Assembly (NCBI GenBank): GCA_027487315.1
Contig: JAIYDW010000069.1
Coordinates: 1-45,095, forward strand
Length of the DNA stretch: 45,095 bases
Direction: 5' to 3'
Source of the DNA: Verrucomicrobiaceae bacterium
Lineage (GTDB): Bacteria > Verrucomicrobiota > Verrucomicrobiia > Verrucomicrobiales > Verrucomicrobiaceae
Part shown: positions 39,057 to 44,782 of the stretch, in pieces
Numbering within the stretch: the first letter of the stretch is position 1
Layout: each line of letters begins with the position of its first letter
Notes under the pieces: generated by a model
Database searches by the model: none
Seen by the model: only the letters and a program-made list of their open reading frames with translations
What the model was told of the DNA's origin: nothing
Made by a program: the position numbers and the translations under genes

Positions 39057-39099
39057 GGGACAGGATTGACGGGATTTTTGAGGGATTAACAGGAGGTTG
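39057..39099 (+). repeat. Dispersed GGATTAACAGGA repeat, copy B
   Basis: GGGACAGGATTGACGGGATT, then TTTGAGGGATTAACAGGA, matches copy A at 28683 at most positions in the same orientation. It begins 4 nt upstream of the DUF1501 start and so forms part of its leader. Confidence 0.7.
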
Positions 39100-39312
39100 G
39101 GGATGAAACCTGACGCGGGGCGTTTGGTTGCGCGGGGGGAGGTTGTTCGCCGATTCGCCTGAGAAGTTGCTGCAGGGTGAACCCGAAATCCGAAGTTGAG
39201 GGGGCTTGATGGGATTGAGCTTGGAGTGATCCAGCTGTCGAGCCTTTCAGTTACCTCGGCCTCCGGCATTTGAGTTGAGGCCAGATGGATTACTGACTGG
39301 CGTATCCAGGCA
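39100..39312. other. Intergenic spacer upstream of DUF1501
   Basis: No gene is seen. Near 39260-39284 a GGCCTC...GAGGCC hairpin with a 13-nt loop follows the 3-prime end of the vapC-like gene and may terminate it. The rest shows no clear promoter or repeat. Confidence 0.4.
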
Positions 39313-39735
39313 CTATGGGTTGGCGATCACCCAATCGTCGGGTCGCATAGCCCTTGCGCGTTGGATGTGTTCGTTGTCCCAAGACACGAGGTTGCAGCCT
39401 GCAATATCGGCAGTCGCGGCATACAAAGCATCGGCTCCGCGAAGAAAACTGGCTGATCCGATGGATGACGCTTTGGCGAGGAGGGCGGCGTTCACGGGAT
39501 GTTGTTTGGCAGAGGTGGTGTTGAAGATAAGGTTGGCAAGGCGCTGTCCGCGAGCTGCATTGCGGAGTTTGCGAGACAGGGCACAAGTCACTTCAACCAA
39601 TGCGAACGCAGGCACATGAAGCACTACTCCGGCAGACAGTGCATGGCTGATGAATAACCGGCTTGGCGCACAAAGCGGATCGGTCGAATCCTGCGCGGCC
39701 ACCCAGACACTGGCATCCACAGCGACGGCGCTCAT
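39313..39735 (-). CDS. PIN-domain ribonuclease toxin (VapC-like)
   Basis: A 140-residue PIN-domain protein. The acidic residues of the site are visible: Asp in AVAVDASVWVAA, Glu in FALVEVTCALS, Asp in RGADALYAATA and the Asp of LVSWDNEHIQRA. VapC toxins cleave tRNA or rRNA when freed from VapB. The start ATG overlaps the antitoxin stop (ATGA). All key acids are present, so it looks active. Confidence 0.88.
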   Translation of the reverse strand: MSAVAVDASVWVAAQDSTDPLCAPSRLFISHALSAGVVLHVPAFALVEVTCALSRKLRNAARGQRLANLIFNTTSAKQHPVNAALLAKASSIGSASFLRGADALYAATADIAGCNLVSWDNEHIQRARAMRPDDWVIANP

Positions 39736-39998
39736 GCTCTTTCAAGCCGACTGCGTTCCTTGGTCAAATGTGATCGGGCGGTGGGTCCACGTGGGGCAAC
39801 CTGCATCGCCTGATCGGCCTCAGCAAAACAGGCCGCGAGTTTTTTGGATGCTGCGGCTTTGGTGACTGGTTGAACTGCAGGTTGCAAAGCGAGGCGCAGG
39901 CCTTCATCAACGAGGTCCTTCATTTTGCGACCCGTGGAGGCGGCGAACAGTTTGGCTTCACGGTAGAGTTCGTCATTGATCTCCAGTGTGGTTTTCAT
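39732..39998 (-). CDS. VapB-like antitoxin
   Basis: An 88-residue protein. MKTTLEINDELYREAKLFAA followed by STGRKMKDLVDEGLRLAL is the VapB ribbon-helix/antitoxin pattern. The C-terminal part (about 45 residues) is Ala/Arg-rich and should wrap the toxin. The start at 39998 is chosen by homology; in-frame ATGs at 40007 and 40025 are alternatives. The pair is translationally coupled through ATGA and probably autoregulated. Confidence 0.82.
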   Translation of the reverse strand: MKTTLEINDELYREAKLFAASTGRKMKDLVDEGLRLALQPAVQPVTKAAASKKLAACFAEADQAMQVAPRGPTARSHLTKERSRLERA

Positions 39999-40089
39999 TT
40001 GACCCATATTCCCAGATTCCCGCATAGCTGTCAACCGGTGGGCTTGGTTCGCATCGAGGAGGGCGAAGACGAAGTCGTTTGTTGTTGGA

Positions 40090-40722
40090 TCACAGGACCC
40101 GGATTTGGGCGGGGTCGCTCCAGGGGCCGAAGAGGCCTTTGAGGCCGAGGGTGCGGACTCGGACCCAGATGAGGGCGCCGGGTGGGAGTTGGGTCAGTTC
40201 GGCTTTGCCACTGCGGAAGTAGCTGGCGGTCTTCCAATTCGCTTCTTCGAGGGGGTTGGCGAGGCAGATTTGGACTTCGTTGACTGAGCGTCGGCGGAAG
40301 GGGCGGTAGCGGGCTATGATTGTGCCGCTGAGTGTGCCGTGGCGGAGCACGAGGTTTTCGGGCGCGGGTGGTGGAGCGTGATTGGGCGGACGGCGGGTGG
40401 CGTAGGTGGGGAAGCCGCTCTGCGCTATTCTCTCGGCGTCATTGAGGGCCAACGAGTTTACATACTGGCCGAGGGTACGGAGGGTTTTGGCGAGGGCCGT
40501 GTGGGCGCGGCGAAGGGCGGAGACGGCGGCGGTGGCACCGCTTTGGCGTTCCTGGAGCTTGATGTTGAAGTCGTTGATCTGCGTCTGAAAGTTTGGGAGG
40601 GTGATGGGCGGGTTCGGGAACAGGTCCGGGTGGGCGGCCAAGCCGTTGTGGATGATTTGGGCCTGGGTTTTGAGTTCCGGGGAGGGAAGTTCTTCAAAGT
40701 AGATCCGAGCGCGAAGGGACAT
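40090..40722 (-). CDS. Fibronectin type III-containing protein of unknown function
   Basis: A 210-residue protein in two parts. The N-terminal 110 residues are helical (QTQINDFNIKLQERQSGATA, then LRRAHTALAKTLRTLGQYVN). The C-terminal 90 are one fibronectin type III-like domain (PAPENLVLRHGTLSGTIIAR, then ALIWVRVRTLGLKGLFGPWS). Similar two-part proteins occur as hypothetical genes in Bacteroidota and Verrucomicrobiota. There is no signal peptide. A 42-bp tandem array begins about 130 nt upstream of its start, in the region its transcript or promoter would occupy. Confidence 0.65.
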   Translation of the reverse strand: MSLRARIYFEELPSPELKTQAQIIHNGLAAHPDLFPNPPITLPNFQTQINDFNIKLQERQSGATAAVSALRRAHTALAKTLRTLGQYVNSLALNDAERIAQSGFPTYATRRPPNHAPPPAPENLVLRHGTLSGTIIARYRPFRRRSVNEVQICLANPLEEANWKTASYFRSGKAELTQLPPGALIWVRVRTLGLKGLFGPWSDPAQIRVL

Positions 40723-40850
40723 GACGGTGTCGGTTGGGGTGGAGCCTCAATCCGCGCTGTTGCGGGGCTGAAGCGTTGCGGCATGGGACAATTCCGCTTC
40801 GGAGAAGAGCTGGTTCGCGTCTCTGAAGCACGAATCCGAATGGGAAAAGG

Positions 40851-41170
40851 ATGACACGTTTGCGATTTTCGGTCCACCTTTTTTTGGAAACGGATCACGC
40901 TATGGGTGAGAGGATGGACCGTTTGCTGAAAACGGTTCATGCTTTTGGAAAAGAGATGATCCGTTTGTGAAAAACGGTCCACGGTTCTGGCAAACGGGTG
41001 AACCGTTTGCCGTTTTCGTGTCACGCTTTTGGGGAAAGGATGATCCGTTTTCTAAAAACGGTTCACGGTTTTGGTGATGGAGTGACACGTTTGCCGCTTT
41101 CGGTCCACGTTTTTGGGAATGGGGTGAACCGTTTTGCATTTTCGGTCCACGCTTTTTGACCTGGGATGAG
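40851..41170. repeat. 42-bp degenerate tandem array with internal palindromes
   Basis: The anchor CGTTT recurs at 40857, 40920, 40962, 41004, 41046, 41088 and 41130: one step of 63, then five of exactly 42. A second anchor CGGTYCA (CGTGTCA in one unit) recurs at 40933, 40975, 41017, 41059, 41101 and 41143. Several units contain CCGTTT...AAACGG palindromes, for example CCGTTTTCTAAAAACGG at 41045. The rest of the gap from 40723 to 41355 holds no gene. All minus-strand frames are open through much of the array, giving 14-residue peptide repeats, but no convincing gene. No cas genes or conserved-repeat/unique-spacer pattern. Confidence 0.9.
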
Positions 41171-41301
41171 GCGTTGCTGGCCTTTGGGGCCTAGTTTTTG
41201 CGTGTGCGTGGGACGTTTTTGGCATTCGAGTTCTCCCAGAGCTTGAACTGTGGGCGAATCTGAGCTCTAGAACCCAGAAATCTGTTCACGAATTAGACAA
41301 A

Positions 41302-41324
41302 CCACATTTTAGTGTGGACTAAAA
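41302..41324. promoter_or_regulatory. Overlapping palindromes upstream of small membrane protein
   Basis: CCACA-TTTTAG-TGTGG and TTTTAG-TGTGGA-CTAAAA overlap about 32-54 nt before the ATG at 41356, in an otherwise AT-richer stretch. They could be an operator or alternative RNA stems. Confidence 0.35.
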
Positions 41325-41355
41325 AACGTTCGCCCAACTCAACAAGCCACTCGCC

Positions 41356-41625
41356 ATGAACGAGACTGTCTCAACGCCATCATGGACTGAACGGCTCCTC
41401 TACTTCGGCGTTATCTGTGCTGCGACTGTCGCCCCTCTTTTCCTTCACTTTCGGGTGAGTTGGTGGCTTGCCCTCATTACTTGGTTCGGATTAGTCACAC
41501 TCTATGACCGCCTGTTTGTTTCAAGGAGTGCGCTTTGCATGGGGATGGGATTCACATTACCGCTGGTGACCGGCATGCTTCTCATTGGCATGGATGTGGT
41601 CGCACTTATTCGATGGCTTTTTTAG
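41356..41625 (+). CDS. Small membrane protein, unknown
   Basis: An 89-residue protein with two to three hydrophobic helices (LLYFGVICAATVAPLFLHF, WWLALITWFGLVTLYD and FTLPLVTGMLLIGMDVVALI). There are few charges and no recognised family. It sits alone in the accessory region between the 42-bp array and the broken toxin-antitoxin genes. Its base composition is more AT-rich than its neighbours, in keeping with transferred DNA. It is probably a real gene but unconfirmed. Confidence 0.5.
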   Translation: MNETVSTPSWTERLLYFGVICAATVAPLFLHFRVSWWLALITWFGLVTLYDRLFVSRSALCMGMGFTLPLVTGMLLIGMDVVALIRWLF

Positions 41626-41670
41626 CAGCGAGGATTTCAAAGCGCATTTTCCATTTATGGCAGACCCTCA

Positions 41671-41964
41671 CTATACCAGCAATGGAGCACGATGACGGAG
41701 GTCTAGCATGGCGTGGATTACAATGCCTCGAGATTCCACCACATAGAACAAGCCGTAACGCCTTTGAGGGCCCATCAACCAGCGGCGCATCTTCGGTGCG
41801 CCAAGGACTTTGGCTCCGACTTCGGGATGGTCTGACAGCAGGCTCAAGGCCGAATGAGGTGGGAGCTCTAGCACCTCGGTGATCCGAGTGTCGTTCTCGG
41901 CCAACAGGTCAAACCAAAGCTGATGGATTTCTAGAAGGTCGCGCTAGGCTCCAGCGGACCACAT
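41671..41964 (-). pseudogene. ParE/RelE-type toxin with premature TAG
   Basis: Reading from the ATG at 41964 gives MWSAGA, a TAG at codon 7, then RDLLEIHQLWFDLLAEN through SALSLLSDHPEVGAKV to RRYGLFYVVESRGIVIHAML and the final stop, 97 codons in all. The pattern RDL-x-EI near the start, L-x-x-HPE-x-G in the middle and the closing YVVES...HAMLDLRHRAP is that of ParE/RelE toxins. A TTG at 41904 could start only a fragment. The ATG lies 4 nt after the antitoxin stop. Nonsense mutation, rather than suppression, is the simplest reading. Confidence 0.7.
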
Positions 41965-41968
41965 GATC

Positions 41969-42193
41969 TCACTTGGCATCACCTCGGAATATGCGTTCGC
42001 GCACTTGATGCCAGGATGAAGCCGCCGATGGATCAGCGGCGTGCTGGGATAGGCGCTGGTCGAGCAATTCCAAAATGGCTGGATCAATGGTGGTCTCGTT
42101 TGTGTCGTCAGCCGACAACCAGAGTTCTTCGGCGAGTTGCCGCTTCTGGTCTGAAGGCAGTTTCTGAAGATCAGGTAACTGTTACAGGATCAT
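41969..42193 (-). pseudogene. Addiction-module antitoxin (PF09720-like) with premature TAA
   Basis: From the ATG at 42193 the frame reads MIL, a TAA at codon 4 (42184-42182), then QLPDLQKLPSDQKRQLAEEL, W and on to SWHQVRERIFRGDAK and a TGA, 75 codons in all. LPSDQKRQLAEELW is the hallmark of the short addiction-module antitoxins that accompany ParE/RelE toxins. The in-frame stop close to the start suggests inactivation, unless an unusual start downstream is used. The downstream toxin also has a premature stop. Confidence 0.7.
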
Positions 42194-42265
42194 GAGGGGA
42201 GAAGTAGGTGATTTAGGGTTTTGGCAAATAGGGAACTGCTCTGAGCCGGTGGTGGGGCAGCGTAT

Positions 42266-44782
42266 TCAGTTGAGGTAGCGGAATTCGGCGGAGGCTAGGA
42301 GGGCTTGGCAGAAGGAGGTGAGGGCGAGTTTTTGGGCTTTGTCTTTTTGCTGTTGGGAGTTTTTGGAGGAGCCGGTTTCGACTTTGGTGGGGAAGGTCAT
42401 CCAAAAGGTGCGGATGGCGGTGAGTTCTTCGGGGGTGGGGGCGCGGGAGAAGGCGAGGTGGTAGGCGTGGGTGAGGCGGTCGAGGGGGTTGCCGTCGAAT
42501 TCGTTCAAGCGGGTGGCGAAGGCGTCGGCGAGGGCTATGGCCTGGGGGTTGTTCATGAGGAAGAGACTTTGGGAGGGGACGTTGGTGTTGTCGCGCGAGC
42601 CGTTGACGAGGGAGGCGTCGGGGAAGTCGAAGACGGAGAGGAACTCGGGGATTTGATCGCGGATGATGGGTAGGTAGATGGAGCGGTGGGGGGAGGGCTG
42701 GCTGTTGACCTGGGTGAGGAGCTGGATGAGGCCCTGGCGGCCTTCGCTGACGCGGGCGACGGGGGAGCCGTCGATGGGGTAGAGGTCGAGGGTGCCGGAC
42801 ACGGCGAGCATGGCGTCGCGGACGGCTTCTGCGTCGAGGCGGCGTTGGTCCATGCGCCAGCGGTGTTTGTTGTCGGGGTCCGTGGCGTGGTTGGCGGCGT
42901 CGTAGGTGGAGCTCATTTGGTAGGTGCGGCTGAGCATGATTTGTTTGATGAGTTTTTTGACGGACCAGCCGTTTTCCATGAAGGCGAGGGCGAGGTGGTC
43001 GAGGAGTTCGGGGTGGGTGGGTTTCATGCCCATGAGGCCGAAGTTGTCGGGGGTGGGGACGATGGCCTGGCCCATGAGGTGGAGCCAGATGCGGTTGGCC
43101 ATGACGCGGGCGGTGAGGGGATTGTCCTTGGAGGCGATGAAGTAGGCGAGGTCGAGGCGGCCGGAGCCCTGGGCAATGTTGCGGGGTTCGTCGGGGGCGC
43201 AGAGGACTTCGACGAGGCCGCGGGGGATGATGTCGGATTGTTGATTGATGTCGCCACGGACGAGGAGGGGGCTATCAATGGGGGCGGAGCGGTCGAGGAC
43301 GCCCATGGTGAGGGTGCGGGGGGTGCCGTCGGGGTTGAAGAGGTCGAGGTCGGCCTGGGCGGTGGCGGTGCGGTCGCGGGCCTGGCGGATGCGGAGGAAG
43401 GTAGTGACATTGCCGTTGTCGCGTCCCTGCTGGCGCATGGCCATGGCTTCGCGGGTGGCTTCTTCAGAGGCTTTGGTGAGGGAGGCGACTTCCTGTTTGA
43501 GGCGGGTGACTTCGGCGGGGGCGAGTTTGGCGATGGCGGCGGGCTGACCGGAGGCGGGGTCGAGTTCGATGAGGGTGGAGGGGAAGTTGTTTTGCTGCTG
43601 GCTGGGGGTGCCGTAGAGGGTTTCGCTGCTTTGGAAGATGCCGGCGAGGGCGTAGTAGTCGCGCTGGGTGACTGGGTCGAATTTGTGGTCGTGGCAGCGG
43701 GCGCAGGCGAGGGTGAGGCCGAGCATGGACTGGGAGACGACGTCGATTTGCTCGTCGACGAGGTCGGCCTGGAACTGGCGGCGGTCGCGGTTGTTGAGGC
43801 CTTTGGGGCCGAGGGCGAGGAAGCTGGTGGCGATGATTTTTTCAGCCTGATCTTTTTTGCCGTCGGAGAGGAGGAGATCGCCGGCGAGCTGCTCTTTGAG
43901 GAACTGGTCGTAGGGTTTGTCTTTGTTGAAGGACTCGATGACGTAGTCGCGGTAGCGCCAGGCGTGGGGGTAGGGGACGTTCGATTCTTTGCCGTTGGAT
44001 TCGGCGTAGCGGGCGACGTCGAGCCAGTGGCGGGCCCAGCGTTCGCCAAAGCGGGCGGAGTCGAGGAACTGGTCGATGACGGATGCGACGGCGTCGGGGG
44101 ATTTGTCTTCGGTGAAGGCTTTGACTTGATCCGGGGTGGGCGGGAGGCCGGTGAGGTCGAAGGCGATGCGGCGGATGAGGGTGGGGCGGTCGGCATCGCG
44201 GACTGGGTGGAGGCCGGCGGTCTCCATGCTGGCGAGGATGAAGTGGTCGATGGGGGTTTTGGCCCAGTCGGGCGTTTTGACGGCGGGAGGAGGGGTGGCG
44301 ACGGGTTTTTGGAAGGACCAGTGTTTGCGGCCTTCGGTCATGTCGATCTGGCGGCGGCCGCCTTCGGGGTTGGCGATTTTGGATTCGCGAGGGTCGGGGG
44401 CGCCCATTTCGATCCAGCGTTTGAAGTTGGCGATGACGTCATCGGGGAGTTTTTGTTTGGGCGGCATTTCCATGTCCGGGTCTTCCCAGGTCATGGCGGT
44501 GTAGAGGGTGCTGGCGGCGGGGTCGCCGGGGGTGACTGCGGGATGGCCGGACTCGCCGCCGAGGAGGGTGTTTTGTTTGTTGTCGAGGAGCAGGCCGCCG
44601 CGGACTTTGGTGGCGTCGGCGGCGTGGCATTTGTAGCAATGCTCGACGAGGACGGGGCGGATGTTTTTTTCGAAGAAGGCGAGTTGGTCGGGGGAGATGG
44701 CCGCGTGCGGAGCGGGGCTTTCGGTTTGGGCGAAAGCGGAGGCGGAGAGGAGGGCGATGACGGGGAGGGAGAGGGCCTTCAT
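42266..44782 (-). CDS. PSCyt1-DUF1549-DUF1553 protein (planctomycete-type cytochrome)
   Basis: An 838-residue secreted protein with a signal peptide (about 1-18, SAFAQ). An N-terminal PSCyt1 haem domain has C49-Y-K-C-H53. The DUF1549 (PSCyt2) region follows (DHFILASMETAGL; WARHWLDVARYAES) with a second C-x2-C-H in ACARCHDHKFDP. A DUF1553 (PSD1) domain is at the C-terminus (NRIWLHLMGQAIVPTPDNFG; SLFLMNNPQAIALAD). Such proteins normally precede a DUF1501 gene and may act in periplasmic polysaccharide or sulfated-glycan use. The frame is open upstream; the ATG at 44782 begins the signal peptide. The gap at 42194-42265 holds no gene. Confidence 0.93.
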   Translation of the reverse strand: MKALSLPVIALLSASAFAQTESPAPHAAISPDQLAFFEKNIRPVLVEHCYKCHAADATKVRGGLLLDNKQNTLLGGESGHPAVTPGDPAASTLYTAMTWEDPDMEMPPKQKLPDDVIANFKRWIEMGAPDPRESKIANPEGGRRQIDMTEGRKHWSFQKPVATPPPAVKTPDWAKTPIDHFILASMETAGLHPVRDADRPTLIRRIAFDLTGLPPTPDQVKAFTEDKSPDAVASVIDQFLDSARFGERWARHWLDVARYAESNGKESNVPYPHAWRYRDYVIESFNKDKPYDQFLKEQLAGDLLLSDGKKDQAEKIIATSFLALGPKGLNNRDRRQFQADLVDEQIDVVSQSMLGLTLACARCHDHKFDPVTQRDYYALAGIFQSSETLYGTPSQQQNNFPSTLIELDPASGQPAAIAKLAPAEVTRLKQEVASLTKASEEATREAMAMRQQGRDNGNVTTFLRIRQARDRTATAQADLDLFNPDGTPRTLTMGVLDRSAPIDSPLLVRGDINQQSDIIPRGLVEVLCAPDEPRNIAQGSGRLDLAYFIASKDNPLTARVMANRIWLHLMGQAIVPTPDNFGLMGMKPTHPELLDHLALAFMENGWSVKKLIKQIMLSRTYQMSSTYDAANHATDPDNKHRWRMDQRRLDAEAVRDAMLAVSGTLDLYPIDGSPVARVSEGRQGLIQLLTQVNSQPSPHRSIYLPIIRDQIPEFLSVFDFPDASLVNGSRDNTNVPSQSLFLMNNPQAIALADAFATRLNEFDGNPLDRLTHAYHLAFSRAPTPEELTAIRTFWMTFPTKVETGSSKNSQQQKDKAQKLALTSFCQALLASAEFRYLN

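Follow-up and report, generated by a model that had tools for sequence, protein, structure and literature searches.

Plasmid iterons, which are bound by Rep proteins, are direct repeats of some 20 bp arranged in tandem and in helical phase beside a gene, the sequence of an iteron being tied to its cognate Rep. Bacterial minisatellites and higher-order satellites are likewise built of tandem units, and are known for homogenisation and for the formation of higher-order repeats. At the promoters bound by BvgA, head-to-head dimers of the regulator occupy one face of the DNA every 22 bp, and six weak sites without strong-binding features suffice (PMC7250471). In the type III toxin-antitoxin system ToxIN, a repeat array is located directly upstream of a small protein gene; its units of about 34-36 nt, present in 2.8-5.5 copies, contain pseudoknots and are conserved among related toxins, and the repeats of type III systems are as a rule conserved within a toxin group (PMC5086642).

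The array described here was found in a stretch of 45,095 nucleotides from a Verrucomicrobiaceae bacterium (hereafter the window). It shares with the BvgA promoters a two-turn spacing on one face of the helix and a putative joint use of several weak sites by dimers; however, those promoters have at most six sites and one known regulator (PMC7250471), whereas the arrays here have about 11-16 units with locus-specific sequences, and their binder is putative. Like ToxIN, it places repeats directly upstream of a small protein gene, but in contrast to type III systems the arrays lack covariation. The resemblance to iterons lies in helix-phased direct repeats of about 20 bp adjoining a gene, although the arrays are chromosomal, have no Rep or origin and change beside a conserved protein. 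Tandem units, homogenisation and higher-order repeats are shared with minisatellites, from which the arrays differ by their fixed 21/22-bp period and phase, their dyads and their recurrent place before one gene family.

The array, its gene and its island

The array extends from 40848 to 41183 (336 bp, no strand assigned), slightly beyond the 40851-41170 given in an earlier note on this DNA, and is made up of 16 units, the final one degenerate; each measures 21 bp, which is exactly two turns of the helix. Two versions of the unit, A (CGGTYCACGNTTTTGG) and B (GRTGAWCCGTTTGC), alternate in a 42-bp higher-order repeat. The exact 42-bp step and the single step of 63 bp described before are both present, but the basic unit is 21 bp and not 42 bp: the 42-bp step reflects the alternation of the two 21-bp versions, and the 63-bp step arises because one B unit is missing near the low end (order B-A-A-B-A-B...). 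In self-alignment over the 336 bp, lags of 42, 84 and 126 bp give self-matches of 0.61, 0.64 and 0.62, respectively, as against only 0.35-0.38 one base off phase and a top value of 0.39 for 2,000 shuffles at any lag from 15 to 99, which bears out the proposed phasing. The CCGTTT...AAACGG palindromes reported earlier are also real (monomer dyad z = 4.5, p = 0.002), and the inverted relation between B and A units is exemplified by the arm at 40915-40940 (TGGACCGTTTGCTGAAAACGGTTCAT), which pairs with 40956-40981 with 77% complementarity over 26 nt. No second tandem array of this kind scoring at least 25 occurs in the window. The array sequence is present once in its own genome and is absent from 58 other genomes of the family, and the idea of an element scattered through the genome or originating at another site was rejected because no further copies were found. 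Intrinsically curved DNA was rejected as well, since the curvature of the array (0.092; wedge model) is not raised relative to permuted sequence with an identical period (0.081; flanks, 0.057).

A spacer of 125 bp (40723-40847, minus strand) separates the array from the start codon of the Fn3 gene (40090-40722, minus strand); a simple scan shows no sigma-70 consensus promoter in this spacer. The 210-aa product of the gene has an N-terminal helical bundle followed by a C-terminal fibronectin type III domain in a confident AlphaFold model (mean pLDDT 92), and matches to the Pfam fn3 domain were obtained for 7 of 19 relatives of the protein. Relatives of the gene are found in 27 of 68 genomes of the family and, by profile search at class level, in 30 of 189 genomes, some through the fn3 domain only; named carriers are Verrucomicrobiaceae and Spartobacteria assemblies. 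The gene is multicopy in many Verrucomicrobia, with a maximum found of at least 13 copies in one genome, copy numbers being lower bounds because 16 candidates were scored per genome in the class-wide search. The protein is under purifying selection without a consistent hot region. In many homologues (L011, L012, L014, L019, L027) the N-terminus has a triple [WFY]D motif (LTWDTPGLTWDSGLTWDG, RYDDPSVFWD), a portion that seems to be frameshifted or lost at the window locus. In about 31 loci a gene for a collagen-like protein (start like MFDPTYPPTNAEIESAPLRSQFNGLKDLIDA) follows the Fn3 gene, at about +300 to +1500 of it (L034, L068, L135, L138-L143), and neither of the two proteins has an evident signal peptide. 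A variant cassette at L158 (1972-4017) combines an array with adjacent genes for a W-D-motif helical protein without an Fn3 domain, a collagen-like protein and an XRE-like protein.

Array and Fn3 gene are part of a 3.2-kb island (39079-42267, no strand assigned) that also contains VapBC-like genes and a ParE-like gene. The VapB-like antitoxin gene (39732-40034, minus strand) has a weak Pfam match and is accompanied by a gene for a PIN-domain (VapC-like) toxin (39313-39735, minus strand); the ParE-like toxin match at 41671-41904 is weak, and its partner region at 41900-42190 looks broken. The island is absent in congener G014, in which about 31 bp separate the bordering PSD1-type and DUF1501-type genes, with 95-96% identity on both sides, while in G003, of the same genus, the junction holds different sequence and a transposase-like ORF (IS1595-like by eye). 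This junction is thus an insertion hotspot, and close relatives are without the array because they lack the island. The earlier note had considered that homologous loci in close relatives might lack the array or space it at random; where the gene is present, however, correctly spaced arrays usually accompany it. The toxin-antitoxin setting that it had described applies to this island, but such genes are not recurrent neighbours of arrays elsewhere.

Spacing, symmetry and sequence turnover across the gene family

The suggested link between array and Fn3 gene is borne out by the search of homologues, since an array is present within the upstream 1.5 kb at 57 of 78 homologue loci. A random sample of 800 kb from genomes with arrays contained seven such arrays (about one per 115 kb), so that about one would be expected across the 78 upstream regions. 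When near-duplicate loci were removed, 58 of 71 loci had an array (slightly laxer cut-off, 1.8 kb upstream). Nearly all periods are 21, 22, 42, 43, 44, 63 or 66 bp. Most of the upstream arrays are 200-370 bp in length, and the distance from their end to the matched part of the gene is mostly about 80-350 bp; one subfamily has them further upstream, separated from the gene by a small HTH gene. In 400 kb from three genomes without detected family members no arrays of this type were found, a sample too small to demonstrate absence. Contigs of draft genomes stop in or near arrays (L047, L118, L069, L077, L086), and arrays are therefore likely under-represented in assemblies.

Partition or replication control, which had been put forward as a use of the array, finds no counterpart in this survey. 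Among the recurrent neighbours of the arrays there is no replication or partition gene, including the linked replication initiator expected of iterons, and no polymerase, reverse transcriptase or recombinase. Searches of phage, plasmid and viral-contig sequences gave no matches to the Fn3 gene, for which a mobile phage or plasmid origin was rejected on these grounds.

The units of an array differ from one another by about 30% and yet remain in phase. The match at exact multiples of the unit is 0.72 at two units and 0.69 at 12 units, where neighbouring offsets of 1 to 4 bp give a background match of 0.24-0.31, and only 3 of 356 units fit another phase better. Similarity between units is flat with the distance between them, so the arrays are not shaped mainly by recent local duplication, and conservation is unequal among columns in 85% of arrays, so units are not merely decaying copies. 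Even at 87-93% identity of flanks and gene, unit sequences differ among loci, whereas phase, place and rough length stay. The arrays of L103 and L104 are unrelated, with nearly equal block lengths and flanks that are 88% and 87% identical; so are those of L085 and L086, with 12 and 11 units, flanks that are 93% and 90% identical and a dS of about 0.16. The orthologue pairs L100/L112 and L098/L108 also carry unrelated arrays, and in L123/L124 (flanks 92% and 90% identical) the arrays differ with some words still in common. In most tested pairs unit profiles are no closer than in random pairs; related units are retained in L101/L114, L140/L143 and L085/L087, and turnover is therefore uneven. In line with what the earlier note had supposed from a single array, spacing rather than sequence persists across the gene family. 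Comparison of these loci suggests that what is preserved in evolution is how the units are spaced and that they are symmetric, not their exact sequence. The Fn3 protein itself was rejected as the reader of the sequence: being 84-93% identical beside unrelated arrays, it is conserved while they change and is unlikely to read them.

The symmetric sites on one DNA face that the earlier note had proposed are likewise supported. In 62% of arrays the monomer profile is similar to its reverse complement, as against 7% of simulated ones (p = 3e-17), and dyad symmetry is also present in five of seven arrays away from the Fn3 gene family. A weak motif is common to the arrays, consisting of a purine-rich turn followed by TTT[GT]CC and lying about 6.5 sd over natural-word nulls; residual homology among some arrays may add to this signal.

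A putative binding platform and competing explanations

We tentatively favour, with chances that we put somewhat below even, the reading of the array as a cis-acting platform of double-stranded DNA for a putative dimeric binder that would control the downstream Fn3 gene. The 5' region of this gene would thereby contain about 11-16 weak dyad-symmetric sites, all on the same side of the helix because they recur every 21 (or 22) bp. Protein binding, cooperativity of binding and gene regulation are what we infer from this anatomy: a dimeric DNA-binding protein would occupy the sites cooperatively as a row, and the row of bound dimers would set the expression of the gene. Because binding would rest on many weak sites in register, indels would be purged while the base sequence would be free to drift and be re-homogenised, so that each locus would acquire a unit of its own. 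This reading is preferred because the anatomy matches the cooperative dimer geometry of BvgA. Two features of a phased operator array are found, namely spacing by integral helical turns (21/22 bp, no drift over 12 units) and dyad-symmetric sites (62% of arrays, and the window's own). Other observations speak against it. Arrays occur also away from the Fn3 family, and at least one of them (L164) lies between convergent genes, where no promoter is expected; turnover at the divergence of L085 and L086 exceeds the rate to be expected if one binder with a fixed motif were at work; about 40% of arrays are without a significant dyad; and a simple scan of the window detects no sigma-70 consensus promoter.

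A fixed period could also be maintained without regulatory function, if the arrays were satellite-like minisatellites of 21/22 bp spread and homogenised by unequal exchange, the Fn3 cassettes inserting into them or travelling along; the period would then be fixed because exchange moves whole units. The arrays elsewhere in the same genomes, the higher-order repeats of 42, 63, 44 and 66 bp and the block lengths, which differ between loci by roughly whole units, are in keeping with such an origin. However, a neutral process should leave indels beside so many substitutions, and hardly any unit is off phase; other periods are nearly absent, unit similarity is flat with distance, and the dyads and the weak shared motif suggest selection. 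We regard this origin as unlikely. Quite unlikely is an active writing of arrays, in which copying or recombination would make 21/22-bp units en bloc and diversity would be the product, as a recognition tag or in an arms race. The non-alignable array blocks of paralogues whose flanks and gene are 87-93% identical point in this direction, as does a young array with near-identical units of a sequence that does not recur in its genome, but no linked polymerase, reverse transcriptase or recombinase recurs beside arrays, and homologous recombination between flanks, with divergent donors, could have produced what is seen.

That the array acts as RNA, as a chain of hairpins in the leader (a suggestion of the earlier note) or as processed leader repeats resembling the antitoxin RNA of type III systems, is very improbable. 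The repeats do stand before a small protein gene, and consensus units fold better than shuffles, but they do so on both strands, with no strand preference. The two arms of strong inverted repeats vary independently: compensatory cells number 19 where 14.7 are expected, and G-T pairs are no commoner than expected, which fits DNA half-sites and not RNA stems. No Rfam family matches the array at threshold, closely related proteins have unrelated arrays, in contrast to the type III repeats (PMC5086642), and the predicted model of the linked protein does not have the ToxN/CptN/TenpN toxin fold. A coding repeat of heptapeptides is hardly credible: 21 bp equal seven codons and at least one frame is open in 41 of 50 arrays (as against 69% expected after permutation of columns), but only 8 of 50 are open into the gene, 22- and 44-bp arrays exist, and nine of the 50, including the window's, have stops in all six frames, which refutes this origin for the window copy and upholds its description as a non-coding gap outside any longer translated gene.

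It is possible, if somewhat doubtful, that the arrays constitute a novel class of cis-element in Verrucomicrobia, in which the geometry (21/22-bp phase, dyads, about 300 bp) would be inherited and the sequence rewritten as a whole, at orthologous loci as well as paralogous ones, by an array-writing process or by diversifying selection from a co-evolving binder, each array serving a helical-bundle/Fn3 cassette that often includes a collagen-like protein. No published description of such arrays was found in the literature that could be searched; the repeat class is to that extent undescribed, and it also seems to break the assemblies of these genomes. In these arrays, which stand beside a conserved gene, DNA sites retain their spacing and symmetry over many loci and genomes but do not retain their sequence. 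If confirmed, this would provide a direct test of how regulatory arrays can last when no motif is conserved.
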